Below, one piece after another: positions 5,183 to 61,106 of a stretch of 64,000 nt of DNA (position 1 is the stretch's first letter; each line of letters begins with the position of its first letter). The position numbers and the translations under genes are program-made. This DNA comes from Lycium barbarum (Eukaryota; Streptophyta; Magnoliopsida; Solanales; Solanaceae): positions 50,304,457 through 50,368,456 of the forward strand of contig NC_083343.1 in assembly GCF_019175385.1 (NCBI RefSeq), written 5' to 3'. A model generated the notes under the pieces. The model was not told where the DNA came from. It was given only the letters and a program-made list of their open reading frames with translations, and ran no database searches.

Positions 5183-5216
5183 GTTTATCGGTGTGTTGTG
5201 CACCACATCTATAAAC
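5183..5216 (+). other. leader stem-loop with GTGCAC loop, unit 1
   Basis: The outer stem GTTTAT/ATAAAC is followed by a one-by-one mismatch, then the inner stem GGTGTG/CACATC with one G-U pair. The 8-base loop ends in the palindrome GTGCAC (5198-5203). It sits between primer site and gag. It is proposed as a dimerisation-type signal. Confidence 0.5.
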
Positions 5217-5325
5217 AGGAGGGTACAGGGCATCTAGGATGTTACCCTTCTTTGGATTCTTAGATCGTGCGATAGAACTGTATTAGTAGGATGATCCTTT
5301 CCTAACGATCTGCTATGTTTCAGTG

Positions 5326-6780
5326 ATGCCTCCGAAGAAGGCAACAGCTGCCCAGAAGGGCAAGGCGAGGATAGAGGCAGGAGAGACCAGCCGGGCCCCG
5401 AGGGTTACGAGGGCCAGTGTGCAGCCTGCATTTGAGGATGTGCCCCCGTCGTCTGGATCGGTTACACCCCCCTTGCCGGAGGATATCAGAGCAGCAGAAG
5501 CTGCTAATCGGGAGACGGCTCCACCGCAAGCTCCTGAGGTTCCAGTGCCAGAGCCTCCAGCTCCACAGGCAGGGGCGGAGGGTAGGGCCATGCGAGATGC
5601 GGTTCAGTTATTGACCACGTTGATGACGGAGCAGGTTCGCAAGCATGGATTTAGGGGTGGTCGTGCGGACAGGTATGAGAGCTCCAGGGCTCGGGAGTTT
5701 TTGACATGTAAGCCTCCAGAATTCTCCGGGACAAAACCTGAGGAGGACCCCCAGGAGTTCATTAGAAAGATGGAGAGCACACTACGATTGATTAAGGCTT
5801 CGCCGACTGAGTCTGTGGAGTTGGCTTCGTATCGATTATATGAGGTGGCGGCAAATTGGTATGAGTCTTGGCAGCTCTCCAGGGGTGACGATGCTTCCCC
5901 AGCGGTATGGGCCGAGTTTACTAAGGCCTTTCTTGACCATTTTCTACCACCAGAGCTATGGAGAGCTAGGGTTGATCGGTTCTTGAACCTGAGACAGAAT
6001 GGTAGAAGTGTTCGCGAGTACAGCCTAGAGTTTGACTCACTGGCTAGGTATGCGCCCGCCATAGTAGCCGAGATGGCCGACAGGGTGCACATGTATGTGA
6101 TGGGACTAGACTCTTATCTGATTGACGGTTGCTTGGCCATGGCTTCTCAGCCAGGGATGCATGTAGCCTGGGTACAGGCATACGCCCAGGGCATGGAGGA
6201 CCGACGTAGGGAGCGTCGGCCTGATAGGGGTTATGATAGGGGCCGACCTAAGAGAGCCAGATCGGCTGGATATTCAGGGGGATTTCAGGGTGAGCCTTCC
6301 CAGCGGCAGGGTAACAGGTATTCGTCCCAGCCAGCCTACAGTACACCCCCACAGTTCTCGGGACAGAGCTCCAGAGTCCCAGGCCCACAGGTGAGCAGAG
6401 GTCCCGGTCAGTCGAGGCCACCCATACCCCCATGTTCGTACTGTGGGAGACCCCACCCGGGGTAGTGTTATCGCGCTACGGGCGCTTGTTATTTTTGTGG
6501 GAGTCCAGACCATCGAGTCAGAGAGTGCCCGCTTAAGGGCAGTTCAGGTTCAGGTTCAGTTCAGCCTGCTGGGTCCGTTGCAGGCTCATCTTCTCCTTCG
6601 ACAGCTATACGCCCCACAGGGGGAGGAGCACCAGCACCAGCGCCAGCAGGTCGTGGCAGAGGTCGTGGCGCAGCTTCTGGTTACAGCGGTCCTTCGAACC
6701 GCGTGTTTGCTTTGACCGGCCGGCAGGACCCTGGAGCGTCTTCGAGCGCACGCCCAGGTACGCCAGCAATTCTTTTTTAG
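5326..6780 (+). pseudogene. gag: element B gag, unit 1, nonsense-broken
   Basis: This is the same gag as at 11850-13304: a nucleocapsid-type structural protein that packages element RNA. The start ATG at 5326 opens MPPKKATAAQ. The capsid-like core includes LASYRLYEVAANWYESW and SLEFDSLARYAP. A G-to-T change makes TAG at 6463-6465, just after CSYCGRPHPG, removing the second zinc knuckle, and the frame then stays open to the normal stop at 6778-6780. Several missense differences from unit 2 are present (for example LWRARV for LRRSRV). The truncated product would have 379 residues. Its function is probably lost or altered. Confidence 0.88.
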
Positions 6781-7002
6781 AGATATATGTATGGATAAGT
6801 CTGTATTTTACTGCATTACGTGATCTTATACGTCTGGGTATTAGAATTAGTAAGGTAAATGTTAACTTGGTAGATACCGAGATTCAAAAGGCGACATGGT
6901 AATTGTACGATTTAGCCGGGGATGGGACCCACTACAAAAAAAAAATCCGAAAATTTGCTAAGATCCCGATCTGCCCTAAATTACGTGACGAAGGTCGTGC
7001 GG

Positions 7003-7131
7003 GGTAGTCGACGAAATTATATTAGCCCTAACGCGTCAAAACGCATGAAAGTTTCGGAGTTAAGCGTGCTCAAGCCAGAGCAATTCTGGGATGGGTGACC
7101 CCCTGGGAAGTAATGCAAAGTTTTGCACAAG
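7003..7131 (+). repeat. 5S rRNA-like segment in element B, unit 1
   Basis: GGAGTTAAGCGTGCT and GGGATGGGTGACC followed by CCTGGGAAGT match the A-box and C-box parts of the plant 5S rRNA internal control region, in the right order and about the right spacing. The 5' third (ATTATATTAGCCCTAACGC) still aligns with the start of 5S, and GTTTTGCACAAG resembles its end. It is too diverged to be a working 5S gene. Its likely origin is an inserted 5S or 5S-derived SINE. Confidence 0.78.
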
Positions 7132-7704
7132 TGTAGGTATGATGGATATAAATGAAAATTTGGGGTAATCTAAAGGAAAAGAGAATGTGTGGAGTAATTA
7201 GTGCCTTTACAGAAGCCACACAGACCGAAGGAAAGGTGCGATACCGCTTGGGAAATTGAGCGAATTCGAATAATAGTCAGAGACGCTCGCCAGTAAGATA
7301 TTAGTAAATATATTTGTATGTGTGTATGTGTATGTGTGTGTACGCGTGTATGTATGATTTTCGTTTGGTGCCCATGCGGGTTAAGAGCCGAGTCCCGGCA
7401 ACTAACGTTGTGATAGACGAAAGGTTTTACTAAACCGAATACATGAAGCGAAGCGGGGGTGAGGACACAGATGCTGTCAAGGACTAGAAAAAAAACCCTA
7501 TCCCATTATAACTCAGTCTGGTATGACGATGTCTGAAAAGGAAAATGAGTATGGATGGTAGAAAAGACGAAAGATAAGAAATGCGAAGAAGCGGAATCTT
7601 TGAAAGAGTCGATAAGCGACACGCGAGATGAGTTGTATGATAACTTGGCTAACCAGGTTACCAATAAGGGAATTTTCCTAAAATCACTGGAGCCTTACTA
7701 AGAT

Positions 7705-8140
7705 TGATCTGATTCGGCTTCAGATTCTATCTGTTATACTTCTGCACTTCCGATCCTGATAAAGCTCTGTCTATTACGCCTCAATGCTTCTGAACTCGAT
7801 TATGTCCCCACCTGATAAATATTTGTACATCCGATTCTGAAAATGTTTCTGGTTGACCTACCCCGGTATGATTGATTCTGAATACGTTTCTGTCTGACAC
7901 ACCTCTGTATGTCTGACTCCGGATATGAATCCGTCTGATATGCTTCTGTGCGTCTAATTTCGATTGTACGCCTGTCTGATACATCTCCGTATGTCTGATC
8001 TTGATTACGACCCTATCTGGTACATTTCTGTCCGCCTGACTTTGACTACGAATCCGTCCGCCATGGTTTAGTACGTCTGCCTCCGATTACGAATCCGTCC
8101 GATATGCTTCTACGCGTCTGGTTCTAGTTCTGAATCTGTT
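7705..8140 (+). repeat. minisatellite of about 42 bp, unit 1
   Basis: Degenerate tandem units of roughly 41-42 bp are built on the phrase TACGAATCCGTCTGATATGC followed by TTCTGTNCGTCTGA. The last six or so units align well; the earlier ones are more worn. Confidence 0.7.
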
Positions 8141-8470
8141 GGTATGAAGTGTCTGGTCTGAAGTGGGATTTCGAGAACGGGGTAGGAACCTCAGGAGTGT
8201 AACAGGAAATGATATGGACTATGACGTCTGGGAAGCGTCTGTCTGTTACAAGAATATAGCTTATGGTTCGATGATTGTGTGGGGTAATAGAAAATATGTT
8301 ACAAAGGAATTTGAATCAGTGACGTGAAGAATTACCCCATAATGTTGGTAAAGAATCCATGTCCGGAAGTCCACGAAGGACAATTATAAAGAGGACCCTC
8401 CCGAAGTAGTACGACGCCCCATAAGGTCAATTTAACATTCGAGGACGAATGTTTCTAAAGGGGGGGAGGA

Positions 8471-11400
8471 TGTTACATCCGACATTTTCGCTTATTCGAA
8501 AAATTCAAGATAAATGGACTTGTGATGAATAAGGCCACAATTGGACCTTACTTGGTATGAATGTGTAGGTCATGAATTCAATGGTGTGGAATTACGAAAG
8601 GTGGCCAAGGGCAACATTGGAATTTTGGAAACTTGCCTTATGAATTACAAGATGTAACCACCAAATTGGGCTCAACAAAATTAATAAAATGAGGCCCAAT
8701 AAGAGAGGCCCAACCGGCCACAACCTTTTGACCCAAGCCATGGATTAATTAATTTCCATGTGGACTTATAAGATCATACTTATCCAAAGAAGGTTCAAGA
8801 AAAATCAAAAGAAAACAAGAACAAAAGAGAAGAGCATTTCGGGTGGAAGAGAAAGAGAGAAAAAGAAAAGAAAGAAAAATTTTGGGAGCCAAATCCTTGG
8901 TTTAAAAATCAAATTTTTGTGGGAATATTACTAAGTGCAAAGCCCTCTACAACTTGGTGCAATTAGTTTGGCAAGAGGACAACTTTGTAGCAAGTGGAAA
9001 ACTTGAAGAAAAGGTAAGGATTTTACCATTTTTATGTCATGAAATGTATGTATGTATGTTGTAGTGTGTGGAAATGAAAGAAAAGTATGAAAATTTTTGT
9101 GTGTTGGAAGTGCTTGTGTTTGGGCCGTGAGTATGCTTATGTTGCATGGTTTTGGTGACTTGAATTCATGTTAGAATCTAGTGTATTATGGTAGGAATTG
9201 TATTAGAAATGAAAGTGGAAGTTAAGAATTTTAAGGGGGTGGCCGTGAGCATGGTTAGTCATGGAAGGTTGATGAATTGATTTTATGTAGTAGGTTGCAT
9301 GTCATTTTAATGCATGGAATGTGAATTAAATCTTGTTAGTATGTTAAGGGTGGTTATGGAAAAATGGTTATTAAGTTGTTGTAAGAAAACATACAACTTT
9401 GTTATGGTTTATGTAAAAATGGAAATGAAAGTATCAAGAGGCAAATTATGATTATTGTTGATGAATTTGGAAGATGGAAATGTATAATTAACTTGTATGT
9501 TGAAAGTTAGGAAAAATTGGATAAGTAATGGCTTAATGGAAAGTTGGTATGTTTTGCATATCTTGTGTATATTGTGTGGAAATGGTATGATATGCCTCCT
9601 ACGTATGTTGTGATGATTTGATGGTTGATGAATATGAAAATGATAAGTTTGGTTTGGAAATGTAAGTTTGAAACGAAAGATGTTTCGTTATGTCGAAAGA
9701 TGGCTAGTGATGCCATAGTGTATGTTTTAATGTCTATTGTTGTTTTGATGTCATTCTGGGTTGTTGTGTTGATGAATTGAGCCGAGCTAACTCTCGGGGA
9801 TGTCTTATATACAGAGGAAATGGTGCCGAAATTTCGGTAGGCAAGTATGTGTTAAGTTGGATTGTTGAAAAGTTTGAAACTAACAAATGGTAAACTTGAC
9901 CATTTCTAGATTTTTGACGAAATTGGGATTGACGCCAAGCTAGCGTAAGGCGCTATCGAGGTATGTGAAGCATTCCCCTATGTTCCTAGGCATGTTCTGG
10001 ATGTGGTAGGCTCGGCCGCGAACCTTAAGTACGACTCTGTTCCCCGGAATTCGAGACGGAAAACCGCTCCAATTCCTTCAATTCAATTGAAGCTATTTTC
10101 TTACAAATTGCCTTTAAAGTGAATTTTTGTACAAAACTTCCTTAAACGGAGTCGGAACACTTCCAAACGACTATGGATGACCTCATAAGGTCTATTAGCA
10201 ATAATTTACCTATGTAGCCTCGAGTTGGTCCGAGGCGGGCCCACAAGGCCCGATATCTTCTGTAAAATTTTAAATACTTCCGTTTTGGTCCGATTTTCTC
10301 TAAAAACTTCTGGACTATTATTTTGTGTATGACATGGCTATTTTTGTGTAATTTATACAACATGATTTTTGAACATCTGAGAATCCAATTCTGATAATAA
10401 TCTGTCGTGCCTTCCCAACTAGGATATAGGCGCGTACTATGCATACTATCCGGATATTCTGATTTTGGCTCGCCGTTTGGCACCCTTCAGTTTGATTGAG
10501 TCTGTATGTTGAGTCTGTATGTAAGTAGTTTCTCATTTATCGGTTCCTGTCTGTCTCAATGCATTCTTTCACTGCGACCCGGGCCAGGTTCTGTTATCGT
10601 GCATATTTCTCTGCATTGTTCACCGCGTCCCTCGGCGTACGGGCCGGGATCTGTATGTCTGTATCACATTATGATTTGTGTATGGGGATGGCGGCCAGGA
10701 TGGCATATGATCTGATCTGATTTTGTCTGTCCACCGCGTCCCGTACTAAGAGGGCCGGGTTCTGTTACCGCGCCCCCAGACAGGGCCGGGATCTGTATGA
10801 ATGTATGCGTGTGCTATCTATATTTATATAAGCACATGCCTCTGTATGATTCTGTATGACTCTGTACTACTCTGCATGCATAATGCTGTCCGACATACTT
10901 CTGTCTGTCCGTCTGAAAGACAACTACGTCTGTATGTCCGTATGGATTCTGATTCTGCTCGTCTGTCCGTATTATGATCCCGTTTGTCTGTCCGAACCAT
11001 AATTCTGTTTATTTGTATGGAACACGGTTCTGTATGTCTGTCTGGATCATGACTCTGTCCGTCAGTCTGATTTATGGTTCTGTTCGTTATATTTCTGTGA
11101 CTCCGGTTCGGACTATGTTTATATCTGTTATGTTTCTGCTTTACATACTCGGTACATTTTTCGTACTGACCCCCGTCCTTCGGGGGCTGCGCTACATGCC
11201 CGCAGGTACCGACGCACCAGGTGATACGCCGCCAGCGTAGGGATTCTAATTCTGCTGTTTGAAGAGCTCCTTTGATCCGGAGCGTATACTTTTGGTATAT
11301 ATATCTCCCGTCTTCTGTATACTCTGTATGTATGGATATTCTGGGTACGGCGGGGCCCTGTCCCGTCATATGACTCTGTATGTCTGTAGAGGCCTGTAGA

Positions 11401-11647
11401 TAGATGTGTGGGTTACGGGTTTCGTCTGTATACTAGCCTTATCGGCTTATATGCAAATGTCTGTATGTTCAGGTATATATGTATATATATGTATGTTTGC
11501 GCGCGTGCCGTATTTGTATCGACCTACTTTTGTAACTTCTGTTTTAAAAGGAAAAAAAAAATCCGTATGATTTGAAATTCGGTCGGGTAGGTATGTACGG
11601 GTACCCAGTTAGGGTACCAGTCGCGGCCACGGGGTTGGGTCGTGACA
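8471..11647 (+). repeat. element B LTR 2 (shared middle LTR)
   Basis: It starts TGTTACATCC directly after unit 1's purine tract and ends GTGACA directly before unit 2's primer site. It therefore serves as 3' LTR of unit 1 and 5' LTR of unit 2, with no target duplication on either side. Length is 3177 bp. Confidence 0.93.
11150..11186 (+). other. LTR double hairpin, B LTR 2
   Basis: The arms are unchanged from LTR 1: CGGTAC/GTACTG then CCCCC/GGGGG. Confidence 0.55.
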
Positions 11648-11650
11648 AAG

Positions 11651-11662
11651 TGGTATCAGAGC
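11651..11662 (+). other. element B primer-binding site, unit 2
   Basis: TGGTATCAGAGC, complementary to initiator tRNA-Met, lies three bases after LTR 2. Confidence 0.9.
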
Positions 11663-11706
11663 GGTTAGTCCTCGGTATGTCTACAGGCCGTGTCTAGTAG
11701 AGTCTT

Positions 11707-11740
11707 GTTTATCGGTGTGTTGTGCACCACATCTATAAAC
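11707..11740 (+). other. leader stem-loop with GTGCAC loop, unit 2
   Basis: It is identical to the unit 1 hairpin: GTTTAT/ATAAAC outer stem, GGTGTG/CACATC inner stem and loop palindrome GTGCAC. A second conserved inverted repeat, AGATCGTGCGATAG, follows at 11786-11799. Confidence 0.5.
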
Positions 11741-11849
11741 AGGAGGGTACAGGGCATCTAGGATTTTACCCTTCTTTGGATTCTTAGATCGTGCGATAGA
11801 ACTGTATTAGTAGGATGATCCTCTCCTAACGATCTGCTATGTTTCAGTG

Positions 11850-13304
11850 ATGCCTCCGAAGAAGGCAACAGGTGCCCAGAAGGGCAAGGCGAGGATAGAG
11901 GCAGGAGAGACCAGCCGGGCCCCGAGGGTTACCAGGGCCAGTGTGCAGCCTGCATTTGAGGATGTGCCCCCGTCGTCTGGATCGGTTACACCCCCCTTGC
12001 CAGAGGATATCAGAGCAGCAGAAGCTGCTAATTGGGAGACGGCTCCACCGCAAGCTCCTGAGGTTCCAGTGCCCGAGCCTCCAGCTCCACAGGCAGGGGC
12101 GGAGGGTAGGGCCATGCGAGATGCGGTTCAGTTATTGACCACGTTGATGACGGAGCAGGTTCGCAGGCATGGATTTGGGGGTGGTCGTGCGGACAGGTAT
12201 GAGAGCTCCAGGGCTCGGGAGTTTTTGACATGTAAGCCTCCAGAATTCTCCGGGACAAAACCTGAGGAGGACCCCCAGGAGTTCATTAGAAAGATGGAGA
12301 GCACACTACGATTGATTAAGGCTTCGCCGACTGAGTCTGTGGAGTTGGCTTCGTATCGATTATATGAGGTGGCGGCAAATTGGTATGAGTCTTGGCAGCT
12401 CTCCAGGGGTGACGATGCTTCCCCAGCGGTATGGGCCGAGTTTACTAAGGCCTTTCTTGACCATTTTCTACCACCAGAGCTACGGAGATCTAGGGTTGAT
12501 CGGTTCTTGAACCTGAGACAGAATGGTAGAAGTGTTCGCGAGTACAGCCTAGAGTTTGACTCACTGGCTAGGTATGCGCCCGCCATAGTAGCCGAGATGG
12601 TCGACAGGGTGCACAGGTATGTGATGGGACTAGACTCTTATCTGATTGACGGTTGCTTGGCCATGGCTTCTCAGCCAGGGATGCATGTAGCCTGGGTACA
12701 GGCATACGCCCAGGGCATGGAGGACCGACGTAGGGAGCGTCGGCCTGATAGGGGTTATGATAGGGGTCGACCTAAGAGAGCCAGATCGGCTGGATATTCA
12801 GGGGGATTTCAGGGTGAGCCTTCCCAGCGGCAGGGTAACAGGTATTCGTCCCAGCCAGCCTACAGTACACCCCCACAGTTCTCGGGACAGAGCTCCAGAG
12901 TCCCAGGCCCACAGGTGAGCAGAGGTCCCGGTCAGTCGAGGCCACCCATACCCCCATGTTCTTACTGTGGGAGACCCTACCCGGGGGAGTGTTATCGCGC
13001 TACGGGCGCTTGTTATTTTTGTGGGAGTCCAGACCATCGAGTCAGAGAGTGCCCGCTTAAGGGCAGTTTAGGTTCAGGTTCAGTTCAGCCTGCTGGGTCC
13101 GTTGCAGGCTCATCTTCTCCTTCGACAGCTATACGCCCCACAGGGCGAGGAGCACCAGCACCAGCGCCAGCAGGTCGTGGCAGAGGTCGTGGCGCAGCTT
13201 CTGGTTACAGCGGTCCTTCGAACCGCGTGTTTGCTTTGACCGGCCGGCAGGACCCAGGAGCGTCTTCGAGTGCACGCCCAGGTACGCCAGCAATTCTTTT
13301 TTAG
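11850..13304 (+). CDS. gag: element B gag, unit 2, intact
   Basis: This 484-residue Gag is the only long undamaged retroelement gene here. I take the ATG at 11850 (MPPKKATGAQ), which matches the start context of gag in C, D and I. The first 100 residues are Ala/Pro-rich. The capsid-like core follows: FSGTKPEEDPQEFI, SVELASYRLYEVAANWY, FLPPELRRSRVDRFLNLRQ and REYSLEFDSLARYAP. An Arg/Gly-rich linker precedes a partial knuckle (CSYCGRPYPGEC) and a full CCHC knuckle CYFCGSPDHRVREC near residue 390, which binds RNA. Gag would form virus-like particles. The frame ends at PGTPAILF with no protease or reverse transcriptase after it, so reverse transcription would need enzymes supplied by another element. 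Confidence 0.9.
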   Translation: MPPKKATGAQKGKARIEAGETSRAPRVTRASVQPAFEDVPPSSGSVTPPLPEDIRAAEAANWETAPPQAPEVPVPEPPAPQAGAEGRAMRDAVQLLTTLMTEQVRRHGFGGGRADRYESSRAREFLTCKPPEFSGTKPEEDPQEFIRKMESTLRLIKASPTESVELASYRLYEVAANWYESWQLSRGDDASPAVWAEFTKAFLDHFLPPELRRSRVDRFLNLRQNGRSVREYSLEFDSLARYAPAIVAEMVDRVHRYVMGLDSYLIDGCLAMASQPGMHVAWVQAYAQGMEDRRRERRPDRGYDRGRPKRARSAGYSGGFQGEPSQRQGNRYSSQPAYSTPPQFSGQSSRVPGPQVSRGPGQSRPPIPPCSYCGRPYPGECYRATGACYFCGSPDHRVRECPLKGSLGSGSVQPAGSVAGSSSPSTAIRPTGRGAPAPAPAGRGRGRGAASGYSGPSNRVFALTGRQDPGASSSARPGTPAILF

Positions 13305-13525
13305 AGATATATGTATGGATAAGTCTGTATTTTACTGCATTACGTGATCTTATACGTCTGGGTATTAGAATTAGTAAGGTAAATGTTAACTTGGTAGATA
13401 CCGAGATTCAAAAGGCGACATGGTAATTGTACGATTTAGCCGGGGATGGGACCCACTACAAAAAAAAATCCGAAAATTTGCTAAGATCCCGATCTGCCCT
13501 AAATTACGTGACGAAGGTCGTGCGG

Positions 13526-13654
13526 GGTAGTCGACGAAATTATATTAGCCCTAACACGTCAAAACGCATGAAAGTTTCGGAGTTAAGCGTGCTCAAGCCA
13601 GAGCAATTCTGGGATGGGTGACCCCCTGGGAAGTAATGCAAAGTTTTGCACAAG
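13526..13654 (+). repeat. 5S rRNA-like segment in element B, unit 2
   Basis: This copy is nearly identical to the unit 1 segment; ACACGTC replaces ACGCGTC, a CpG-type change. The A-box-like and C-box-like parts are unchanged. Confidence 0.78.
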
Positions 13655-14227
13655 TGTAGGTATGATGGATATAAATGAAAATTTGGGGTAATCTAAAGGA
13701 AAAGAGAATGTGTGGAGTAATTAGTGCCTTTTCAGAAGCCACACAGACCGAAGGAAAGGTGCGATACCGCTCGGGAAATTGAGCGAATTCGAATAACAGT
13801 CAGAGACGCTCGCCAGTAAGATATTAGTAAATATATTTGTATGTGTGTATGTGTAAGTGTGTGTACGCATGTATGTATGATTTTCGTTTGGTGCCCATGC
13901 GGGTTAAGAGCCGAGTCCCGGCAACTAACGTTGTGATAGACGAAAGGTTTTACTAAACCGAATACATGAAGCGAAGCGGGGGTGAGGACACAGATGCTGT
14001 CAAGGACTAGAAAAAAACCCCTATCCCATTATAACTCAGTCTGGTATGACGATGTCTGAAAAGGAAAATGAGTATGGATGGTAGAAAAGACGAAATATAA
14101 GAAATGCGAAGAAGCGGAATCTTTGAAAGAGTCGATAAGCGACACTCGAGATGATTTGTATGATAACTTGGCTAACCAGGTTACCAATAAGGGAATTTTC
14201 CATAAATCACTGGAGCCTTACTAAGAT

Positions 14228-14663
14228 TGATCTGATTCGGCTTCAGATTCTATCTGTTATACTTCTGCACTTCCGATCCTGATAAAGCTCTGTCTATTAC
14301 GCCTCTATGCTTCTGAACTCGATTATGTCCCCACCTGATAAATCTTTGTACATCCGATTCTGAAAATGTTTCTGGTTGACCTACCCCGGTATGATTGATT
14401 CTGAATACGTTTCTGTCTGACACACCTCTGTATGTCTGACTCTGGATATGAATCCGTCTGATATGCTTCTGTGCGTCTGATTTCGATCGTACGCCTGTCT
14501 GATACATCTCCGTATGTCTGATCTTGATTACGACCCTATCTGGTACATTTCTGTCCGCCTGACTTTGACTACGAATCCGTCCGCCATGGTTTAGTACGTC
14601 TGCCTCCGATTACGAATCCGTCCGATATGCTTCTACGCGTCCGGTTCTAGTTCTGAATCTGTT
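14228..14663 (+). repeat. minisatellite of about 42 bp, unit 2
   Basis: It has the same number and order of units as the unit 1 array, with scattered base changes and no visible gain or loss of units. Confidence 0.7.
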
Positions 14664-14993
14664 GGTATGAAGTGTCTGGTATGAAGTGGGATTTCGAGAA
14701 CGGGGTAGGAACCTCAGGAGTGTAACAGGAAATGATATGGACTATGACGTCTGGGAAGCGTCTGTCTGTTACAAGAATATAGCTTATGGTTCGATGATTG
14801 TGTGGGGTATGAGGAAATATGTTACAAAGGCATTTGAATCAGTGACGTGAAGAATTACCCCATAATGTTGGTAAAGAAGCCATGTCGGGAAGTCCACGAA
14901 GGACAATTATAAAGAGGACCCTCCCGAAGTAGTACGACGCCCCATAAGGTCAATTTAACATTCGAGGACGAATGTTTCTAAAGGGGGGGAGGA

Positions 14994-17900
14994 TGTTACA
15001 TCCGACATTTTCGCTTATTCGAAAAATTCAAGATAAATGGACTTGTGATGAATAAGGCCACAATTGGACCTTACTTGGTATGAATGTGTAGGTCATGAAT
15101 TCAATGGTGTGGAATTACGAAAGGTGGCCAAGGGCAACATTGGAATTTTGGAAACTTGCCTTATGAATTACAAGATGTAACCACCAAATTGGGCTCAACA
15201 AAATTAATAAAATGAGGCCCAATAAGAGAGGCCCAACTGGCCACAACCTTTTGACCCAAGCCATGGATTAATTAATTTCCATGTGGACTTATAAGATCAT
15301 ACTTATCCAAAGAAGGTTCAAGAAAAATCAAAAGAAAACAAGAACAAAAGAGAAGAGCATTTCGGGTGGAAGAGAAAGAGAGAAAAAGAAAAGAAAGAAA
15401 AATTTTGGGAGCCAAATCCTTGGTTTAAAAATCAAATTTTTGTGGGAATATTACTAAGTGCAAAGCCCTCTACAACTTGGTGCAATTAGTTTGGCAAGAG
15501 GACAACTTTGTAGCAAGTGGAAAACTTGAAGAAAAGGTAAGGATTTTACCATTTTTATGCCATGAAATGTATGTATGTATGTTGTAGTGTGTGGAAATGA
15601 AAGAAAAGTATGAAAATTTTTGTGTGTTGGAAGTGCTTGTGTTTGGGCCGTGAGTATGCTTATGTTGCATGGTTTTGGTGACTTGAATTCATGTTAGAAT
15701 CTAGTGTATTATGGTAGGAATTGTATTAGAAATGAAAGTGGAAGTTAAGAATTTTAAGGGGGTGGCCGTGAGCATGGTTAGTCATGGAAGGTTGACGAAT
15801 TGATTTTATGTAGTAGGTTGCATGTCATTTTAATGCATGGAATGTGAATTAAATCTTGTTAGTATGTTAAGGGTGGTTATGGAAAAATGGTTATTAAGTT
15901 GTTGTAAGAAAACATACAACTTTGTTATGGTTTATGTAAAAATGGAAATGAAAGTATCAAGAGGCAAATTATGATTATTGTTGATGAATTTGGAAGATGG
16001 AAATGTATAATTAACTTGTATGTTGAAAGTTAGGAAAAATTGGATAAGTAATGGCTTAATGGAAACTTGGTATGTTTTGCATATCTTGTGTATATTGTGT
16101 GGAAATGGTATGATATGCCTCCGGCGTATGTTGTGATGATTTGATGGTTGATGAATATGAAAATGATAAGTTTGGTTTGGAAATGTAAGTTTGAAACGAA
16201 AGATGTTTCGTTATGTCGAAAGATGGCTAGTGATGCCATAGTGTATGTTTTAATGTCTATTGTTGTTTTGATGTCATTCTGGGTTGTTGTGTTGATGAAT
16301 TGAGCCGAGCTAACTCTCGGGGATGTCTTATATACAGAGGAAATGCTGCCGAAATTTCGGTAGGCAAGTATGTGTTAAGTTGGATTATTGAAAAGTTTGA
16401 AACTAACAAATGGTAAACTTGACCATTTCTAGATTTTTGACGAAATTGGGATTGACGCCAAGCGAGCGTAAGGCGCTATCGATGTATGTGAAGCATTCCC
16501 CTATGTTCCTAGGCATGTTCTGGATGTGGTAGGCTCGGCCGCGAGCCTTAAGTACGACTCCGTTCCCCGGAATTCGAGACGGAAAACCGCTCCAATTCCT
16601 TCAATTCAATTGAAGCTATTTTCTTACAAATTTCCTTTAAAGTGAATTTTTGTACAAAACTTCCTTAAACGGAGTCGGAACACTTCCAAACGACTATGGA
16701 TGACCTCATAAGGTCTATTAGCAATAATTTACCTATGTAGCCTCGAGTTGGTCCGAGGTGGGCCCACAAGGCCCGATATCTTCTGTAAAAATTTTAAATA
16801 CTTCCGTTTTGGTCTGATTTTCTCTAAAAACTTCTGGACTATTATTTTGTGTCTGACATGGCTATTTTTGTGTAATTTATACAACATGATTTCTGAACAT
16901 CTGAGAATCCAATTCTGATAATAATCTGTCGTGCCTTCCCAACTAGGATATAGGCGCGTACTATGCATACTATCCGGATATTCTGATTTTGGCTCGCCGT
17001 TTGGCACCCTTCAGTTTGATTGAGTCTGTATGTTGAGTCTGTATGTAAGTAGTTTCTCATTTATCGGTTCGTGTCTGTCTCAATGCATTCTTTCACTGCG
17101 ACCTGGGCCAGGTTCTGTTATCGTGCATATTTCTCTGCATTGTTCACCGCGTCCCTCGGCGTAGGGGCCGGGATCTGTATGTCTGTATCACATTATGATT
17201 TGTGTATGGGGATGGCGGCCAGGATGGCATATGATCTGATCTGATTCTGTCTGTCCACCGCGTCCCGTACTAAGAGGGCCGGGTTCTGTTACCGCGCCCC
17301 CAGACAGGGCCGGGATCTGTATGAATGTATGCGTGTGCTATCTATATTTATATAAGCACATGCCTCTGTATGATTCTGTATGACTCTGTACTACTCTGCA
17401 TGCATAATTCTGTCCGACATACTTCTGTCTGTCCGTCTGAAAGACGACTACGTCTGTATGTCCGTATGGATTCTGATTCTGCTCGTCTGTCCGTATTATG
17501 ATCCCGTTTGTCTGTCCGAACCATAATTCTGTTTATTTGTATGGAACACGGTTCTGTATGTCTGTCTGGATCATGACTCTGTCCGTCAGTCTGATTTATG
17601 GTTTTGTTCGTTATATTTCTGTGACTCCGGTTCGGACTATGTTTATATCTGTTATGTTTCTGCTTTACATACTCGGTACATTTTTCGTACTGACCCCCGT
17701 CCTTCGGGGGCTGCGCTACATGCCCGCAGGTACCGACGCACCAGGTGATACGCCGCTAGCGTAGGGATTCTAATTCTGCTGTTTGAAGAGCTCCTTTGAT
17801 CCGGAGCGTATACTTTTGGTATATATATCTCCCGTCTTCTGTATACTCTGTATGTATGGATATTCTGGGTACGGCGGGGCCCTGTCCCGTCATATGACTC

Positions 17901-18172
17901 TGTATGTCTGTAGAGGCCTGTAGATAGATGTGTGGGTTACGGGTTTCGTCTGTATGCTAGCCTTATCGGCTTATATGCAAATGTCTGTATGTTCAGGTAT
18001 ATATGTATATATATGTATGTTTGCGCGCGTGCCGTATTTGTATCGACCTACTTTTGTAACTTCTGTTTTAAAAGGAAAAAAAAAAATCCGTATGATTTGA
18101 AATTCGGTCGGGTAGGTATGTACGGGTACCCAGTTAGGGTACCAGTCGCGGCCACGGGGTTGGGTCGTGACA
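14994..18172 (+). repeat. element B LTR 3
   Basis: This LTR is 3179 bp and ends GTCGTGACA, followed at once by the TTATT duplication. It carries private changes (for example GGTCTGA for GGTCCGA near 16813 and a longer A-run near 18076). By eye it is about as different from LTR 1 as LTR 2 is. Confidence 0.93.
17674..17710 (+). other. LTR double hairpin, B LTR 3
   Basis: Both stems are intact despite nearby private substitutions in this LTR. Confidence 0.55.
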
Positions 18173-19387
18173 TTATTTGTTTAACAACTTGGGTAGAAAG
18201 AAAAAAGTGGAAGATGAGTTCTAAATGTAGTTTTTATGAGGTTTTTGAGTAGTAAGCTAACTTGAGTTATGATTCTTAGTATAATATGGGTATAATATTG
18301 CTATGGAAAATAATAATGGTGATGAAGACGCATTATATGAAAATGTGCAAAAATGGGTATGAAGTTTCTACAATAAGTTGAACATGAGGATGAATTTTGA
18401 AGGCTGAATCGAATGGGAATACTTGATTATGATATTGTGGATATTATGGTGGTTGTTTTGGAGTTATTTTGTGATGTAGTGGAAGTTGACGAAATAGGGG
18501 AAATGCTGTCCAATATTTTCTAGCTTTAGTCATGTATGCTAAGCTATCGATTTTCTAATGATAGTATAACTCTAATGAAGGTAGAAACGTGAGCATTGAA
18601 GGAGAACGTGCAAGTGATAGAATAGTTGAACGGAAAGGTATGTAAGGATAACCTTTCTTTCATAAGGCATGGTTCTTTGGCCAAATATCTAATCTTCTAT
18701 GAGCCTATGATGTCCTCCAAATGATGCTATCTCCAAAAGCTACTAAAGTCATGATTTTCGATATGTTACGATTGTACTAAATTCCTCATATGACGAGTAA
18801 TCCTCTAAGGATAGATCTAATGAACGACAATAGTAATGATGCTAAAGATGCTTATGAGCTTTTATGTATATGTGTCTATGTATGACTATTATGAAACCCC
18901 GAGCTTATATGGCCGGGTAGAATATATATGTATTGTGCGCGCACCATTGCAGTCTGGTACGGATAACCTGTGCCTTGGTAGGGCCAGGTATGTGTAACCT
19001 TGAGCCTTGGTAGGGCCAGGTATGTATAATCACCGAGCCTAGCCATGATTGGGTACGCGAAACACTGAACCTTCGTGGTCGGGTATGTTATGTAAATGAA
19101 ATGTATATGAATATGAATATGTATATGAATATGATTGCGGATACGAAATGTAAATGAGTACGGATACGAGTACGGATACGGATATGGATGTATGTACACA
19201 ATCACGCATTAGAAATGGAAAGTCCCTATGAAAAGCAAGTAAGTATCTATGACATTGGATCTACTACCTCCCATCTTATGCTATTTCTTATGTTTCTTAT
19301 TATGCTTCCATAATGATGTTGATTATTCTTTACATTCTCAGTACATTCTTCGTACTGACGTTCTTTTGTTTGTGGACGCTGCGTCAT
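18173..19387 (+). repeat. element A 3' LTR, part 2 of 3
   Basis: After the TTATT duplication the sequence resumes A's LTR. It has AAATGCTGTCCAATATTTTC near 18505, AAAGGTATGTAAGG near 18632, GGTAGGGCCAGGTATGT repeats near 18977-19025, and a GGATAC/GAATAT-rich run at about 19098-19190. It stops at insertion C, where GTCAT at 19383-19387 is the first copy of C's target duplication. No gene is seen. Confidence 0.8.
19339..19378 (+). other. LTR double hairpin, element A
   Basis: Hairpin 1 has arms CAGTAC/GTACTG. Hairpin 2 has arms CGTTC/GGACG, with a U-G pair where relatives have C-G. Confidence 0.5.
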
Positions 19388-21988
19388 TGTCACGACCCAG
19401 CGAGGGGCCACAACGGGTACCGGGGCTAGCCACCGAGCACCACTCATTCTACTACTCATCTTACTCATTTAGCTCTTTTATCACATTTATACTCAAATTG
19501 TAGGAAAATCATATTTCATATAGAAGCATAAATACTTTCATATACATATGCCTCTCGGCCATCAAAATAATATATATACATAGTAACAATCTCGTGAGAC
19601 CATCTAACCCACACTGCGTATCTACGAGCCTCTATTGGAGTGCTAACATGAAGACGGGACAAGACCCCGTCATGCCAAAATACATATACATGAATATACA
19701 CAAAAGGATAATCAAGCACCTCCGGAACAAAGGAGTGCTTTCAATCGGCTGACAGCTACTACGAATCTGGGTCAAGCTCTCCTCCCTGTCTACCTGTGGG
19801 CATGAACACAGTGTCCAAAGAAAACGGACGTCAGTACGAACATTATACTGAAAATGAGAGGCATAAACAATGAAATAAGATAATGATACAAAGGAATTAT
19901 CAATATGAAACATCTACATCTGACTGTCAAGTACAAAGGAGATAATGCATGCTGGCTTACTCATAATCATCATCATGTCATGTATGCATAAGTATATATA
20001 AGTTGCCCGTCCATATAGGTACGGTGTGATAGTGTATAAACTGCCCGTCCATATTGGATCGGTGTGACAATCATAACATTAGCCTACGTCCAGGCCTCCC
20101 GCGTCCGGGGTATCATCTCATGCCACCCCACTAGTGGTGTTTGCCCATGCCATCTGGCCATGGTGTATACGCTGCCCGCCTAAGCGGTGACTGCCTGGCC
20201 ATATAAGCGCGGTGTTATATCATCATCATAACATTCTCAACATAATATGCCCATCATAGTATGCTTATCATAATATACTTATCATAATATGTTTATCATA
20301 GTACATGCATAGGGCTCAAGAACAACTACACTTTATCGGGGTGACGTAAGGTCGTGGTCCCCCGATTTCACTATGGAGCATTCATTGACATTCTGCCTCA
20401 CCTTGAAGGAACTAACATATAAGGTGAGTGTGAGTAATAATTAACATCATTATCATTATAGGATCATCATATCATGTCTCTTATCTTATATAGCAATAAA
20501 TAACATCATTAACGTTATAAGATCATCATATCATACATTTTTAAATCTCTATACTTTGACTCATCATCATCATTATGGGACTCATAACATATCTCTTATC
20601 TCGTCTAGCTACTCATGGACATAGACTTTTAGATTTTCGGAATGTAGGAATTCATGAAGAGGAAAGAAGGGTCATGATATAGGATTCATGCCATTAGAAA
20701 GAAAGGGACCAGCCTCACATACCTTTGTCATTTACTAATCTATCGCTTGCTTGTTCTCCTTTAGTGCGCATGTTCTACCTTCAAGAGAATTTGTATCGAC
20801 ATTAGCTAGCGATTTTAAAAATAGCTTACTAACGCTAGAGAAGATTGGACAACATTTCCTTTTGTTTATGCAACTCTTCCCCTATTCTATATCAACTCTC
20901 AGGCGTTCATAACAACATTCTCAATATGATAGACAACACTCATTATTCATTTACAATATCCGTATTTCACAATTTGTCTTCAATTTCTCCATAATCATGT
21001 CCATGGTTCATTGTTGCATTTTCTCACATAGGATACTTATTCCATGTTCTAAATGTCATTCATAACATTTTTATAATCACAAATTATCAATGATCATGGC
21101 TCAATTCAAACCTTTACTCAACAATGCTACTATTCACACTTTCATGACCCATTTCTTATATCCTTCTATAATCCAAGTGTTTCAACTCTTCCATACCCTA
21201 TATAACATGTAAATGCCATAAAACTTACCTTAGATGTTGTAGGAACAAGCCTTGAGTGGCATTACTCTTCTTGCACCAAAACCCTAGTTTACTTCTCTTG
21301 AAATTTCTTAACTTGGATGAACTTTGATGAGTTTCATACACTTGATTCACTTGGATTCTTGATATTGATCTTTGATTTCCTCTGTTTTCTTGTAGATGAA
21401 GAGTGGACAATACTCTAGAGGTTTCTAGAGAGAAGTAACGTGGAAATGAAATGAATTAATGAGCTTGGGTCTCCTTTTTAATGACTTAAAATCTGATCCG
21501 AAATGAACAGTAGCTGAAGTGTACAGTGGTCGTAAACGCAGTTTACGGTTCGTATTCTGTGGACGTATTAAAGCATAACAGAACCAGAAAGTCAGGCTGA
21601 GGACATGGTGGTTTACGACTCAGTTTACGGGCCGTATTTCAGTTTACAGTCTATATTTCAAGTCGTTTTTAACCATTCAAGTCTATGGCAGAAAGTTGAA
21701 GTTTTGTAAATTGAAATAAGACATGGTAGTTTACGGGCCGTATATCACTTTACGGTCCGTATTTCATTTTACGACCAACTGGGCCAAAATGCAAATCTGC
21801 AACTTTTTTACATTTTCAAAACCTATGATTAGTCATTGTGGAGCATAACCTATCTCTTATTGCAATTGCCATTGAAATCTTACTTAGGGTCATCAAATGG
21901 CATCCCCTTCTTATTAAAGCATCGTATACTCGTCCTCTTCGTTAGTCTATTCATTGTATGTTCACGGGCAAATTACCGAGGTGTAACA
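19388..21988 (-). repeat. element C 3' LTR
   Basis: On the minus strand it starts TGTTACACCTCGG and ends GGGTCGTGACA. Palindromic TTTACGG(G/T)CCGTA motifs lie at about 21535-21770, immediately upstream of an A/T-rich TATA-like stretch near 21478. Minus-strand AAAGGTATGTGAGG is near 20725. Confidence 0.9.
19811..19850 (-). other. LTR double hairpin, C 3' LTR
   Basis: On the minus strand hairpin 1 has CAGTAT/GTACTG (one mismatched end). Hairpin 2 keeps GTCC/GGAC, with its outer pairs lost by one mutation relative to the 5' LTR. Confidence 0.45.
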
Positions 21989-22065
21989 TTCTTCCCCCCT
22001 TTTGGAACATTCGTCCTCGAATGTTAAGTCATAGGGGATTCTAGAAAAATTTCGCCAGAGTTTCC
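21989..22065 (-). other. element C polypurine tract and 3' untranslated end
   Basis: Minus-strand AAAAGGGGGGAAGAA abuts the LTR. The inverted-repeat motif CATTCGAGGACGAATG lies just before it, as in B and D. TTTCC at 22061-22065 is the first copy of D's target duplication. Confidence 0.8.
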
Positions 22066-25000: not shown

Positions 25001-25103
25001 CATGAACAACTTGTGTGCTAAACAAAATCAAAATATAACCTTGTCCTTAACTTCCCGCGATTATCTTGAGTTATCCGAATGTACAAAATAGCGGGATATA
25101 ACA
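22066..25103 (-). repeat. element D 3' LTR
   Basis: It is 3038 bp, from minus-strand TGTTATATCCCGC to GGTCGTGACA. It is longer than its partner LTR, mainly through extra units of a GGTACCCGGGAACCGG-type repeat at 22905-23060. A long frame antisense to it (24532-25005) is not a gene. Confidence 0.9.
22606..22643 (-). other. LTR double hairpin, D 3' LTR
   Basis: Both stems are perfect: CAGTAC/GTACTG and CCCCC/GGGGG. Confidence 0.55.
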
Positions 25104-25117
25104 TCATCCCCCCCTTT
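25104..25117 (-). other. element D polypurine tract
   Basis: Minus-strand AAAGGGGGGGATGA directly precedes the 3' LTR. Confidence 0.8.
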
Positions 25118-25189
25118 AGAACATTCGTCCCCGAATGTTGAATTAGTCCCATGGGGTATTATAATACTTCGGGGAGGTCTCCTTTGTGG

Positions 25190-25400
25190 AAGGCTGGATG
25201 TACCGTCTCTAATTCGGAGGCGACTCCGATTCATGGATGATTTTGTCAATACTACGGACAATTTGATAAGGCCCACTATATCTCAGATTGAGCTTTCCCT
25301 TCCTGCCAAAGTCTTATTATACCTTCCATAGGTGACGTCTTCAGGAATAGCCATTCACCAACCTGGAATTCTAAGTGTCGACGTTAATTTTTTCGGTCTT
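25190..25400 (-). pseudogene. element D integrase C-terminal remnant
   Basis: The minus strand reads RRHLEFQVGEWLFLKTSPM, then after a one-base shift GRKGKLNLRYSGPYQIV. This is the GPY/F block of gypsy integrase, as in A and C. No integrase core or reverse transcriptase is found further upstream in D, so this is a relic of an internal deletion or replacement. It shows that D descends from a pol-bearing element. The frameshift and stops rule out function. Confidence 0.75.
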
Positions 25401-25851
25401 TAAGTATTCTTCTTTTCTCGCTCCTCGTTGCCTTGCTAATGGGAAATTACTTTTCTCATATATGGCATATTCTTTATCCCCAAGTATCACGGGGGTGGAG
25501 CCTCTTCTATGAGTACCTCGTGAGGGGGTGCGGTGCCCTCACTTCGGTACGCTTTTCGAGCTTTCCTCTAAATCTTATGTTCTCAGTGTTTATCCAATCA
25601 TGACTTTGTCGCTAACAAGAATAATGATTATATTCCTTATTTCCTTCCCTCACATCCCTCAATGCCAGTATACTTGTCTGTAACTTCCTTGGATTGGTGA
25701 TCGTTCCGTCAATCGTTATTCCTTATTGGCTCTCCGGCGTGGACCTCTTATAATTATAATTGGGCATGGCTTCACATTAGCGGTCCATGTAATTCCCTAG
25801 TGTAGGTTCTCATATTTAACATAGTTAGCAGTCCATGAACTACTCTCTACC
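25401..25851. other. element D noncoding internal sequence left of insertion E
   Basis: I recognise no gene or repeat here. It should be decayed internal sequence of D. CTACC at 25847-25851 is the first copy of E's target duplication. Confidence 0.5.
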
Positions 25852-40283: not shown

Positions 40284-40295
40284 GCTCTGATACCA
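40284..40295 (-). other. element C primer-binding site
   Basis: Minus-strand TGGTATCAGAGC lies four bases from the 5' LTR. Confidence 0.9.
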
Positions 40296-40299
40296 CTTT

Positions 40300-42902: not shown

Positions 42903-43366
42903 GTCATGCCCGCAGGTGGCCAGGGAGACAGACTTGATCCATAGCTTTATTACTCAGGGACTACATAGCGGAGCTCCATTTCATTCGGAGCTACAGCTTT
43001 TGGTATATATTCTTTTGTGTACATATTTATGGGCATAGTGGGGTCCTGTCCCGCCTATATGATATGACATACTCTCCTTAGAGGCTCGTAGACATGTGTA
43101 TATGGTTAGATGTATTTGGCCTTGTCGGCTAGTCTTGTGTATATCATTTTGTTAGCCTCGTCGGCTTATGTACATTGATATGGGCATTGTTATTGATGGT
43201 GATATATATATATGTATCGTTGCCCAATGGGATTAGTATGAATAATGAATGGAAAGTATGAATTAGCTATTTGGCTCACCAAGATGTAAATGTGAAAGTA
43301 TGATAAGAGGTGCCCGGGTGGGTTAGCACCGGGTACCCGTCGTGGCCCTCCGGTTGGGTCGTGACA
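42903..43366 (+). repeat. element A 3' LTR, part 3 of 3
   Basis: After the second GTCAT the text continues GCCCGCAGGTGGCCAGGGAG, which every family 2 LTR has just after its hairpins. It ends GGGTCGTGACA at 43366. ACAAA at 43367-43371 is the candidate target duplication of A; its partner would lie outside the window. Confidence 0.85.
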
Positions 43367-58359: not shown

Positions 58360-58418
58360 GTGGGCTAGGCCCAATCCGAGCCCAACCGGGTTAGGCCCAT
58401 TACCCATGTCTTTATAAG
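58360..58418 (+). promoter_or_regulatory. LTR J promoter: GGCCCA boxes and TATA
   Basis: TAGGCCCAATC, GAGCCCAACC and TAGGCCCATT stand within 45 bp upstream of TTTATAAG, the same plan as LTRs B and E. Confidence 0.5.
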
Positions 58419-60606
58419 TGAAAATTTCGGCCTTCCTCCTCATTTTAAGACCAGGAACGCCCAGAAAATTCTGGGGAGAGAGAGAAAAAGTGTCTTGGAG
58501 AAGAAAAACCAATTTTGATCGAAATTTTAGCCTCGAATCCCGAAGCTCATGAAGAGAAAAGTGTTGTACGTCGCGTTGTCTTCAATTTGAACTAAATATC
58601 AACCAAAAAGAATAGGGTGGGCATAGTGGCTGCACACTTGAGGTAAGATTAAGGTTCCTTTTCATTGCTAGCAAGTTTATTTAGAGTTTTAACGAACTAG
58701 AACGGAGAAAATAGTGTGATAAATTCATTTATCGGTGTGGTTGGATTATGGTTTGAGGCGTGAGGAGAATTTTGGATAAAATGTATATTTATTTATTTAT
58801 ATTGTAGGATGTAAGTATTGATGTTATTGGTATTAACTTCGACGTCTTTACGGAAATAAAAATTATGAAATAGCTATATCGCAATTATGGTTGGTTGAGA
58901 AATTTAGAAAACAGTGTACGGGCTGTTTTATGGCATACGTCAGTATTGGAAATGATGTTAGTATTATTGGTATTGTTGTTGATGTTTTTGGTTGTTAAGT
59001 TGGAATCTAGGGCTAGGCATATAAACAAGAGAGATGTTGCCCGATTTTCGGTAGAATATAAAAGAGTTTAAATTGAAACTTGGGATTGTATGTGACTAAA
59101 TTGAATGTAAATGAAATGTCGTCGGATTATGTAAAAGGAGTTACTAACGTTAGAATGCATTTTGAATTAATTGTTGAAGTTGTTAGTGTGGTTGTTCGTA
59201 TTGTTGTTGATAATTTGGCCGAGTTGAATTCTCGGATTGTTGTTGATAATTTGGCCAAGTTGGATTCTCGGGGTTGGTTGTATTTACAGGGGAAATGCTG
59301 CCGAAATTTCTGTAAATGAAGTGCTAGTTTAGGATTGGACTTCTAAGTATCTATAGCTAATGTTGGTATCTATTAATATTGTTGTAGATCTTGCGAAAGC
59401 CAAAGACTTAAGTTCGGATTTGCTTAGGAAGCGGGCAAGGTATGTAAGGCTTACCCTTTCTTTCTTTTGGCATGTCCTAGATGTAAGTAAGAGACGATAT
59501 GTACCTTGGGGTAACTCTATTCTGTAATTTCGGGCTTGTTTATGATTCTTATTCACTTCTTGATTTGAGTATACTTAGCATTGTTGAACTCGTAGTATGA
59601 TCGCACCTTGAGCAAAGCATAAAGAGTTCGTGTCCCTAAAAGGGTTCTGTAAGTATTAATGTCTCTAACTTTTGTATACAGTCTCGGATTGCTTTGAAAC
59701 GTTCGTAGAGGTTCTGTAGTAAAAGTGTCCATAACTTTCTCATACTAAACTGGATTGACTTGAAACGTGTTTATGATCCTCAAGTGTCGATTAGTGTACT
59801 TATCTATCGAGTCTTAAAAATTGATTTAAATTGCATTTAGTTTCTCACGTCTCTGCTCGTGCATATGGCTGTTACATCTTTCGCCGAGTCCCGGACCGGT
59901 ATGTATCGTGCGTATGGTTCACCGAGTCCCTTGCTTGAGGGCCGGGTTCCATATATATATTCCGGAGTTATGATGTGTTCATGGTTCACCGAGCCCCTTG
60001 CTAAAGGGTCGGGTTCTATATATATGTGTATTCTGATGTTATGGTGTGTTACGGAGATTACAGAGCAATCTTCTGGTGTATGATGTGTGTGGCACCAAAG
60101 ACGGGGTGGCGACCACGTTCCCCGGGTCCCGCAAGGGACCGGACACCGTTCCTGACATGCATGATTTGTGTTTCAAGTAAGCATATTGATATTTTGCATA
60201 TCGTGCTTAGTTTCTGTACTTCTTGTTCCGGTTATGATTCTGTTTCCAGTACTTCATGCTTTATGTGTATATACATTCTGGAGTATGATGTGGTATATAC
60301 ATTCTGGAGTATAATGTGTTCCGAAGTATGATGTGTTATGGCGCCAGTGAAGGAGGGGCGACCATGTTTTGTTCACCGAGTCCCATAATGGGCCGGATAT
60401 GACATGCATGATTGCGTTTTAAAAGTAAGCATTTTGGTATTCTGGATGATTTACTTACTTTCAGCACTTCTTCTGACATGTGACATCGGCATACATGATT
60501 TGTGTTTGGGAAAATAAGCATTTTGGTATTATGGATAATGTACTTACTTTTTGTACTGCTTGTTTCGATTATGGTTCTGTTTTCTGTATTTCATGCCTTA
60601 CATACT

Positions 60607-60644
60607 CGGTACATATTCCGTACTGACCCCCTTTCCTTCGGGGG
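60607..60644 (+). other. LTR double hairpin, element J
   Basis: Hairpin 1 is CGGTAC/GTACTG with one G-U pair. Hairpin 2 is CCCCC/GGGGG. GCCACGCAGGTA follows. Confidence 0.55.
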
Positions 60645-61073
60645 CTGCGTTTCATGCCACGCAGGTACACACAAATGAGTAGAAGACATTGTTAGAGACG
60701 TTCCAGCGGGATTGGCGAGCTCCACTTTCTTCCGGAGTGTTGCCGAGTCAGAGTATACATGTTATGATTTTTCTTGATTGGTGTTAGAGACTTTGCAGAA
60801 AGAGTCATGGGTATAGAAAGTCAATCTTGTAAGCGGCTCTGTAAGCCGACGTACCATTATGCTTTATGTTATAAATTTCATATGATCACCGGTTTTACTT
60901 AACTTAAGAACGACGAAAAGAATGTTTCTGAAAGCCTTTATTATGTATTTCATTTTTATTTGATTTAAGAGTCCAAAGAGATTATGCTTGGAATAAGAGT
61001 CAGCGGGTTCGCTCGGCCCTAAATAAGGGTCGAGTGCCCATCATGCCCTAACAAGATTAGGGTATGACATCTT

Positions 61074-61106
61074 GTTTATGGTGTGTTGCGCGCCACATCA
61101 ATAAAC
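61074..61106 (+). other. leader stem-loop with GCGCGC loop, element I
   Basis: The stems are GTTTAT/ATAAAC and GGTGTG/CACATC with a bulged A. The loop holds the palindrome GCGCGC (61088-61093). AGATCGTGCGATAG follows at 61153-61166. Confidence 0.5.

Follow-up and report, generated by a model that had tools for sequence, protein, structure and literature searches.

Palindromic loops that change in sequence but stay self-complementary suggest a dimerisation hairpin in the leaders of plant chromoviruses

The dimerisation initiation site (DIS) of HIV-1, SL1, is a leader hairpin with a self-complementary six-base loop, for which the available portion of a review gives GCGCGC, GUGCAC and GUGCGC as the prevalent sequences; the same portion describes palindromic loop hexamers that drive dimerisation in the L3 stem-loop of alpha-retroviruses and the Pal stem-loop of betaretroviruses (PMC5874298). 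In Ty3, the DS/PAL6 is a short hairpin close to the 5' end of the RNA with a palindrome at its tip, and its deletion abolishes dimerisation in vitro (excerpts of PMC11381356). A kissing-loop model has been proposed for the 5' end of Ty1 retrotransposon RNA (PMC5454406, in excerpt), and in the barley copia elements BARE1 and BARE2, 'dimerization and packaging signals' are stated to be conserved, also in the gag-deficient parasite (PMC3735527, in excerpt). Here we describe a hairpin in the leaders of long terminal repeat (LTR) retrotransposons nested in one window of the 1.67-Gb genome of Lycium barbarum, the window being the whole stretch of 64,000 nucleotides that was analysed (G000:C7:50304457-50368456). 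This hairpin is probably the dimerisation-initiation hairpin of a chromovirus genomic RNA: its six-base loop stays self-complementary while the letters change, a pattern of sequence evolution which suggests that two RNA copies pair as HIV genomes do. Support comes from a conserved fold, covariation of the loop and of part of the stem, switches between different palindromes, the lack of a recurrent partner site nearby, and persistence of the hairpin in relatives without a gag match.

A preliminary description of the window had reported a stem-loop in five leaders of four elements, which we call B (two units), D, C and I, and every one of these stretches was confirmed. The loop hexamers are likewise those it named, GTGCAC in both B leaders and in D, GCACGC in C and GCGCGC in I. 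The leaders and their loops are located as follows.

5166 to 5233, plus strand: B leader, unit 1, whole rod (lower stem, outer stem 5183-5188/5211-5216, inner stem, 8-nt loop)
5198 to 5203, plus strand: loop palindrome GTGCAC of B unit 1
11690 to 11757, plus strand: B leader, unit 2, rod; non-independent of unit 1
11722 to 11727, plus strand: loop palindrome GTGCAC of B unit 2
32076 to 32143, minus strand: D leader rod, with the loop GTGCAC inside a 14-nt palindrome
32106 to 32111, minus strand: loop palindrome GTGCAC of D
40188 to 40254, minus strand: C leader rod
40218 to 40223, minus strand: loop GCACGC of C, one CpG-type transition off GCGCGC
61074 to 61106, plus strand: I leader hairpin; the upstream leader and primer site are missing in this copy
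61088 to 61093, plus strand: loop palindrome GCGCGC of I

Folded in isolation, the two B leaders and I were predicted to form the claimed hairpin of 6+6 bp with an 8-nt loop. D folded alone has a longer loop stem, since the 14 nt of TGTGGTGCACCACA form a palindrome, and C adopts the described fold solely in a longer sequence context. The stem runs on below the part originally described, and the hairpin is the tip of a rod of about 68 nt. A position between primer site and gag, which had been claimed for these leaders, holds for B, D and C, where the LTR end, TGGTATCAGAGC, the hairpin and gag follow one another in this order, with the hairpin about 45 nt 3' of the primer site and about 110 nt 5' of the gag ATG. 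It does not hold for I, which has lost its LTR and primer site and whose homology begins 4 nt upstream of the hairpin. An Rfam scan of the leader (5120-5330) gave no family match above cut-off, and a known Rfam element was rejected as the identity of the hairpin.

Relatives were collected from this one genome. A hairpin-blind pattern, which had the primer site and a box downstream as its anchors, gave 4339+4349 = 8688 matches (reversed control 0+0), and a core pattern, with part of the stem fixed and the loop bases free, gave 18279+18501 = 36,780 copies genome-wide (reversed control 5+3 = 8). Searches for the leader beyond the source genome, in viral contigs and genome contigs, returned 0 matches. 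The sample was made up of 90 of the first 100 listed copies of the hairpin-blind pattern; eight loci close to B, including as L001 and L002 the two B leaders of the window, which were tallied once; 20 similarity-selected relatives each for L028 and L021; and 40 of 100 listed copies from a subfamily pattern that also catches GCGCGC loops and has 648 copies. With the five window leaders this amounts to 183 entries at 181 distinct loci; L030 and L031, which share the same leader context, were both retained. The aligned set holds 180 distinct leaders, copy I, without a 5' flank, contributing to the tally only, and the 26 loci L179-L204 stand outside it.

The fold is conserved across this sample. 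In 181 entries folded in context (one with an aberrant 5' flank was left out), mean pair probability was 0.81 for the inner, 0.86 for the outer and 0.78 for the lower stem, and the loop was unpaired with a probability of 0.90. The lower-stem columns GTGTCTnGTAG x CTACnGGGCA form standard pairs in 92-99% of 182 entries, the low variation there being partly imposed by the search anchors, which the lower stem largely overlaps. Folding z-scores of 10 chosen representatives ranged from -1.4 to -5.0 for the hairpin and from -2.4 to -7.3 for the rod.

Perfect palindromes occupy the loop hexamer in 116 of the 181 distinct leaders (GCGCGC 58, GTGCAC 29, GCCGGC 16, GACGTC 7, GTCGAC 5 and AACGTT 1), and the first five of these recur. 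In the hairpin-blind sample, 64 of 90 loops are palindromic. No other 6-mer window of the segment had more than one palindrome in at least three rows, in a comparison that left out six windows spanning a gap column; single palindromes reached this level in four windows (ATCGAT 8, TGCGCA 3, ACATGT 3, TTATAA 61). Most of the non-palindromes, 55 of 65, are one change off a palindrome, compared with 14% expected for random non-palindromes, which fits decay after insertion, and many of the changes in these near-palindromes are CpG transitions. Two bases precede the hexamer in the 8-nt loop (TT, AA, TA, AT, TC, TG or GT) and none follows it.

Genome-wide, GCGCGC occupies the loop in 11,338 of the 36,780 core-pattern copies, and the first loop base is not G in 1324. 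Among the matches listed, a further palindrome, GGCGCC, appeared in one copy (G000:C1:2735945-2735979, with a GGTATG stem and the outer arm GTTCAT), and on the CCTACTTAT background GTGCAT was seen twice and GTGCAA once. ACGCGC was considered as an amplified non-palindromic subfamily, which found no support: its background subfamily has 3746 copies, and among the matches listed only two carry ACGCGC and about three quarters, by eye, GCGCGC. ATGCAC may still mark such a subfamily: twenty copies picked for this loop are spread over a number of backgrounds, and the pure clades among them have at most five members.

Covariation was computed with our own scripts instead of R-scape. When 2278 column pairs were ranked by G after average product correction, the top four were loop pair 3-4, inner-stem pair 27-40, loop pair 2-5 and outer-stem pair 20-47. 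The null for each pair placed each column's changes on random branches of the flank tree in 500 runs. The observed G was reached in 0/500 runs for each of the two loop pairs, and in 2, 4, 6 and 14 of the 500 runs for inner-stem pair 27-40 and outer-stem pairs 18-49, 20-47 and 19-48, respectively. Compensation in the stem is clearest in GGTATG/CATAC, GGTACG/CGTACC and GTTCAT/ATGAAC. The palindromic fraction of 0.639 compares with a maximum of 0.356 in a free null (0/2000 runs reach it) and of 0.483 in a null under which changes on tip branches stay on tips and deeper ones stay at depth (0/600). Five recurrent palindromes were reached in 0/2000 free and 0/600 depth-keeping runs (1/600 when the two B leaders, L001 and L002, are counted twice). 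A chance origin of the hairpin and its loop pattern is rejected by the reversed-pattern controls and these tree-aware nulls.

The preliminary description had proposed selection for self-pairing, and loop covariation, five recurrent palindromes and the tree-aware nulls support that proposal; neither loops drifting among non-palindromes nor a stem devoid of covariation was found. Stem covariation is significant in parts of the stem but not for most single stem pairs, and the expected restriction of the loop to palindromes shows in the five recurrent ones, while about a third of the copies are imperfect.

Hexamer ancestors reconstructed by parsimony on the flank tree show how the loops changed. 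The ancestral hexamer is a palindrome at 93 of the 96 nodes with at least four leaves, and the shared switches run from GCGCGC to GTGCAC (50 leaves), from GTGCAC to GACGTC (21), from GCGCGC to GTCGAC (8) and from GCGCGC through the non-palindromic intermediate GCCCGC to GCCGGC (25). Of the 63 hexamer changes on tip branches, 48 break the palindrome (41 through a single base), and five replace it with a different palindrome through two changes. The picture is one in which active elements would keep the palindrome and dead copies would lose it. It could be argued instead that the hairpin serves translation, Gag binding or reverse transcription and owes its palindromy to shared ancestry and a G+C-rich composition: the recurrent loops are all G+C-rich or CpG-containing, most copies have recent common ancestors, and the shared palindrome switches are few (four on the tree). 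We regard this as improbable, since all four switches arrive at a matched palindrome, in one case via a non-palindromic node, since the nulls, which preserve how many changes occur and of what type, fall short of the observed palindromy, and since neighbouring 6-mer windows behave otherwise.

Self-complementarity by itself cannot separate RNA from DNA. Palindromic DNA is a frequent protein target, and GACGTC includes the ACGT core known from plant bZIP sites. The palindrome might therefore be a DNA site for a homodimeric protein, such as a transcription, integration or silencing factor, with the stem incidental. This is very improbable in our view: the five palindromes would demand several specificities, and DNA binding predicts neither the covariation in parts of the flanking stem nor a large excess of G-U over A-C pairs. 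Stem cells in 147 distinct hairpins contain 285 G-U and 43 A-C; as events arising from Watson-Crick pairs, the ratio of G-U to A-C is 12:3 on shared branches (binomial p 0.035) and 60:36 on tips (p 0.018). The G-U excess points to structure in the sense-strand RNA.

Complementarity between loop bases 3 and 4 is usable solely between two molecules or in duplex DNA because the bases are adjacent. A second copy of the leader's own hexamer within -300 to +500 nt, as far as the loci reach, occurred in one case among 117 palindromic entries (two duplicates), and a recurrent second pairing site nearby was rejected on this count. These two facts make kissing between RNAs the simplest reading. It is scarcely credible that the loop instead pairs with the primer tRNA or with a complementary site elsewhere in its own RNA: long-range contacts are frequent in retroviral leaders, but the hexamer is its own complement, a second copy turned up once in the searched range of -300 to +500 nt, and one fixed tRNA cannot match five hexamers.

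We therefore favour dimerisation through the loop as the function of the hairpin. The rod of about 68 nt, which lies in the 5' leader with the primer site before it and gag after it, would present an apical 8-nt loop of two bases and a self-complementary hexamer, and two genomic RNAs would make contact by loop-loop (kissing) pairing of these six bases. The kissing complex would perhaps convert later to an extended duplex, and the RNA pair would probably be packaged together into a virus-like particle. We infer that the pairing occurs in cells, drives packaging and is promoted by Gag (nucleocapsid).

Several observations weigh against dimerisation as the explanation. The palindrome is imperfect in 65 of 181 leaders and in 26 of 90 in the hairpin-blind sample, and some non-palindromes are common to small groups on the tree (GTGCGC in three leaves, GCACGC in four, and GCCCGC in three, apart from the intermediate node). 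Among the hairpin-blind haplotypes, palindromes are not significantly more frequent in those found two or more times (8 of 11) than in singletons (20 of 40; p = 0.31). The wobble form GTGCGC and its counterpart GCGCAC are equally common, at seven each, which speaks against a wobble effect because RNA self-pairing tolerates GTGCGC alone of the two. The observed G is reached by less than 5% of null runs in only six of 17 pairs (two loop, four stem); the remaining eleven loop and stem pairs are not significant by G, and several barely vary. Hexamer pair 1-6 is almost invariably G-C, with no covariation, and at the adjacent positions 3-4 a single dinucleotide mutation could mimic covariation, to which pair 2-5 is immune. 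The G-U skew extends to tip branches (60:36), and its contrast with shared branches is unclean. Computed dimer energies of isolated 20-nt hairpins exceed twice the monomer in 10 of 10 cases and do not discriminate, because the non-palindromic loop of C also favours the dimer. Finally, part of the sample was chosen by similarity, the tree comes from short, noisy flanks with the hairpin excluded, recombination between elements blurs it, and the data represent a single genome.

The hairpin also persists in relatives that appear to lack gag. Loci L001-L098 were classed by nearest palindrome, and similarity to the window's gag proteins was sought downstream, a comparison that a diverged gag would escape. 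Gag similarity was present in 24 of 26 GTGCAC-type loci (two being the window's B), in 49 of 52 of the GCGCGC type and in 6 of 8 lying between both. None was detected in the GTCGAC type (0/5), the GCCGGC type (0/4) or three others (0/3; L021, L047 and L096), within the same limit for a diverged gag. Copies without a gag match also occur in the GCGCGC type (L018, L046 and L066). GTCGAC copies resemble one another downstream, as do GCCGGC copies, and over 730 nt their longest open stretches have a median of 60 codons for GTCGAC and 65 for GCCGGC, against 240 for GTGCAC and 186.5 for GCGCGC. In single stretches of 4.6 kb, the GCCGGC locus L183 showed no gag or pol match, and the GTCGAC locus L184 only one to gag, at 35-37% and some 4 kb downstream, possibly part of a different element. 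L024, L030, L183 and L184, all of the GTCGAC or GCCGGC type, keep the hairpin and have no long open frame; the primer site is seen in L024 and L030. Two seemingly non-coding lineages that keep the hairpin are, in small numbers, what is expected of a cis-acting replication signal. The central pair reads CG in both GTCGAC and GCCGGC, the reverse of the GC in GTGCAC and GCGCGC. It is conceivable, though doubtful, that the palindrome is a self-recognition tag and that a hexamer switch changes the partners in dimerisation and co-packaging. If so, subfamilies, and gag-less parasites relative to gag-encoding helpers, would be partly isolated in packaging and recombination.

The elements that carry the hairpin in the window appear to belong to one family. 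B has three near-identical LTRs (about 1948-5123, 8471-11647 and 14994-18172) and forms an LTR-internal-LTR-internal-LTR tandem array (1948-18172) with units of about 6523 nt that are 99% identical; its relatives elsewhere in the genome are also paired or tripled, a few kb apart. D and C lie on the minus strand, with LTRs at 22066-25104 and 32187-35181 for D and at 19387-21997 and 40299-42911 for C, and I is a 5'-truncated relative of C that starts at about 61070. Separate open pieces of C match Retrotrans_gag, RVP_2, RVT_1, rve, SH3_Tf2-1 and Chromo, the rve (30.8 bits) and Chromo (24.5 bits) matches being slightly below the Pfam cut-offs. Because C thus has gag, protease, reverse transcriptase (RT), integrase and C-terminal chromodomain matches, its domains support assignment of the family of B, D, C and I to the chromodomain-type Ty3/gypsy elements (chromoviruses). 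The LTR lengths of 2.6-3.2 kb are compatible with the Tekay/Del clade. Further features are as follows.

5127 to 5138, plus strand: primer-binding site of B, TGGTATCAGAGC, which we take to be of the initiator tRNA-Met type
32171 to 32182, minus strand: primer-binding site of D
40284 to 40295, minus strand: primer-binding site of C
5323 to 6465, plus strand: gag open reading frame of B unit 1 (Retrotrans_gag)
35318 to 35785, minus strand: integrase C-terminal piece of C, chromodomain match of 24.5 bits (Pfam cut-off 25.1)

The internal region of B (5124-8470, 3.3 kb) and the stretch between the D LTRs (25105-32186) have gag and partial protease-piece matches, and no RT match was found in either. 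B looks pol-less and D probably does too; the D stretch also shows a weak match to the chromodomain piece of C (30% over 86 residues). GTGCAC as a mark of pol-less elements was rejected, as L179 and L180, which likewise have GTGCAC, have an RT match. A 5S rRNA-like stretch lies in the internal region of D (30105-30223, minus strand; Rfam 39.3 bits, cut-off 38) and, below that cut-off at 32.1 bits, in that of B (7012-7126, plus strand). In Cassandra terminal-repeat retrotransposons in miniature (TRIMs), by contrast, the 5S sequence sits in the LTRs. A second conserved leader box, GATCGTGCGATAGA, lies at 5262-5276 in B, about 45 nt 3' of the hairpin and upstream of gag, has equivalents in D, C and I (4/4 elements), and includes the imperfect palindrome ATCGTGCGAT.

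With tens of thousands of copies, one genome provides a natural record of mutagenesis that includes several palindromes. With this record one can test directly whether the genomes of plant elements are packaged in pairs and whether pairing partners are set by the loop sequence; pairing determined by the loop would affect recombination and parasitism by non-coding elements. In the open-licence literature we found no report of a dimerisation hairpin in a plant chromovirus, and little on dimerisation signals of plant LTR retrotransposons beyond the statement on BARE.

Comparison with the described systems, as far as the available portions of the papers go, suggests that the plant hairpin works like a dimerisation initiation site. 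The BARE elements belong to the copia superfamily, whereas those described here are Ty3/gypsy, and the accessible text on BARE yielded no covariation test. Ty1 is also a copia-type element. It shares with our model the kissing loops at the RNA 5' end, a likeness of principle and not of compared sequence. Ty3 PAL6 and the plant hairpin both have a self-complementary apex near the RNA 5' end; in Ty3 the palindrome is CUGCAG, falls within the gag open reading frame and was established biochemically, whereas the plant hexamer lies in the untranslated leader and is supported by covariation. L3 and Pal, from animal retroviruses, also have palindromic loop hexamers and are likened to the plant hairpin by design alone. 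The HIV-1 DIS shares the layout, and its GCGCGC and GUGCAC, whose use had been stated in the preliminary description and is borne out by the review, correspond to the two commonest plant loops. The HIV-1 hexamer is flanked by purines (PMC5874298), whereas the plant loop has two bases before it and none after; purines on both sides, the strict mark of the HIV-1 DIS, are not found in the plant leaders, and the plant family has five recurrent palindromes. The design is thus known from retroviruses, Ty1 and Ty3; what is new is that evolutionary evidence for it comes from a plant chromovirus and that it persists where relatives show no gag match.

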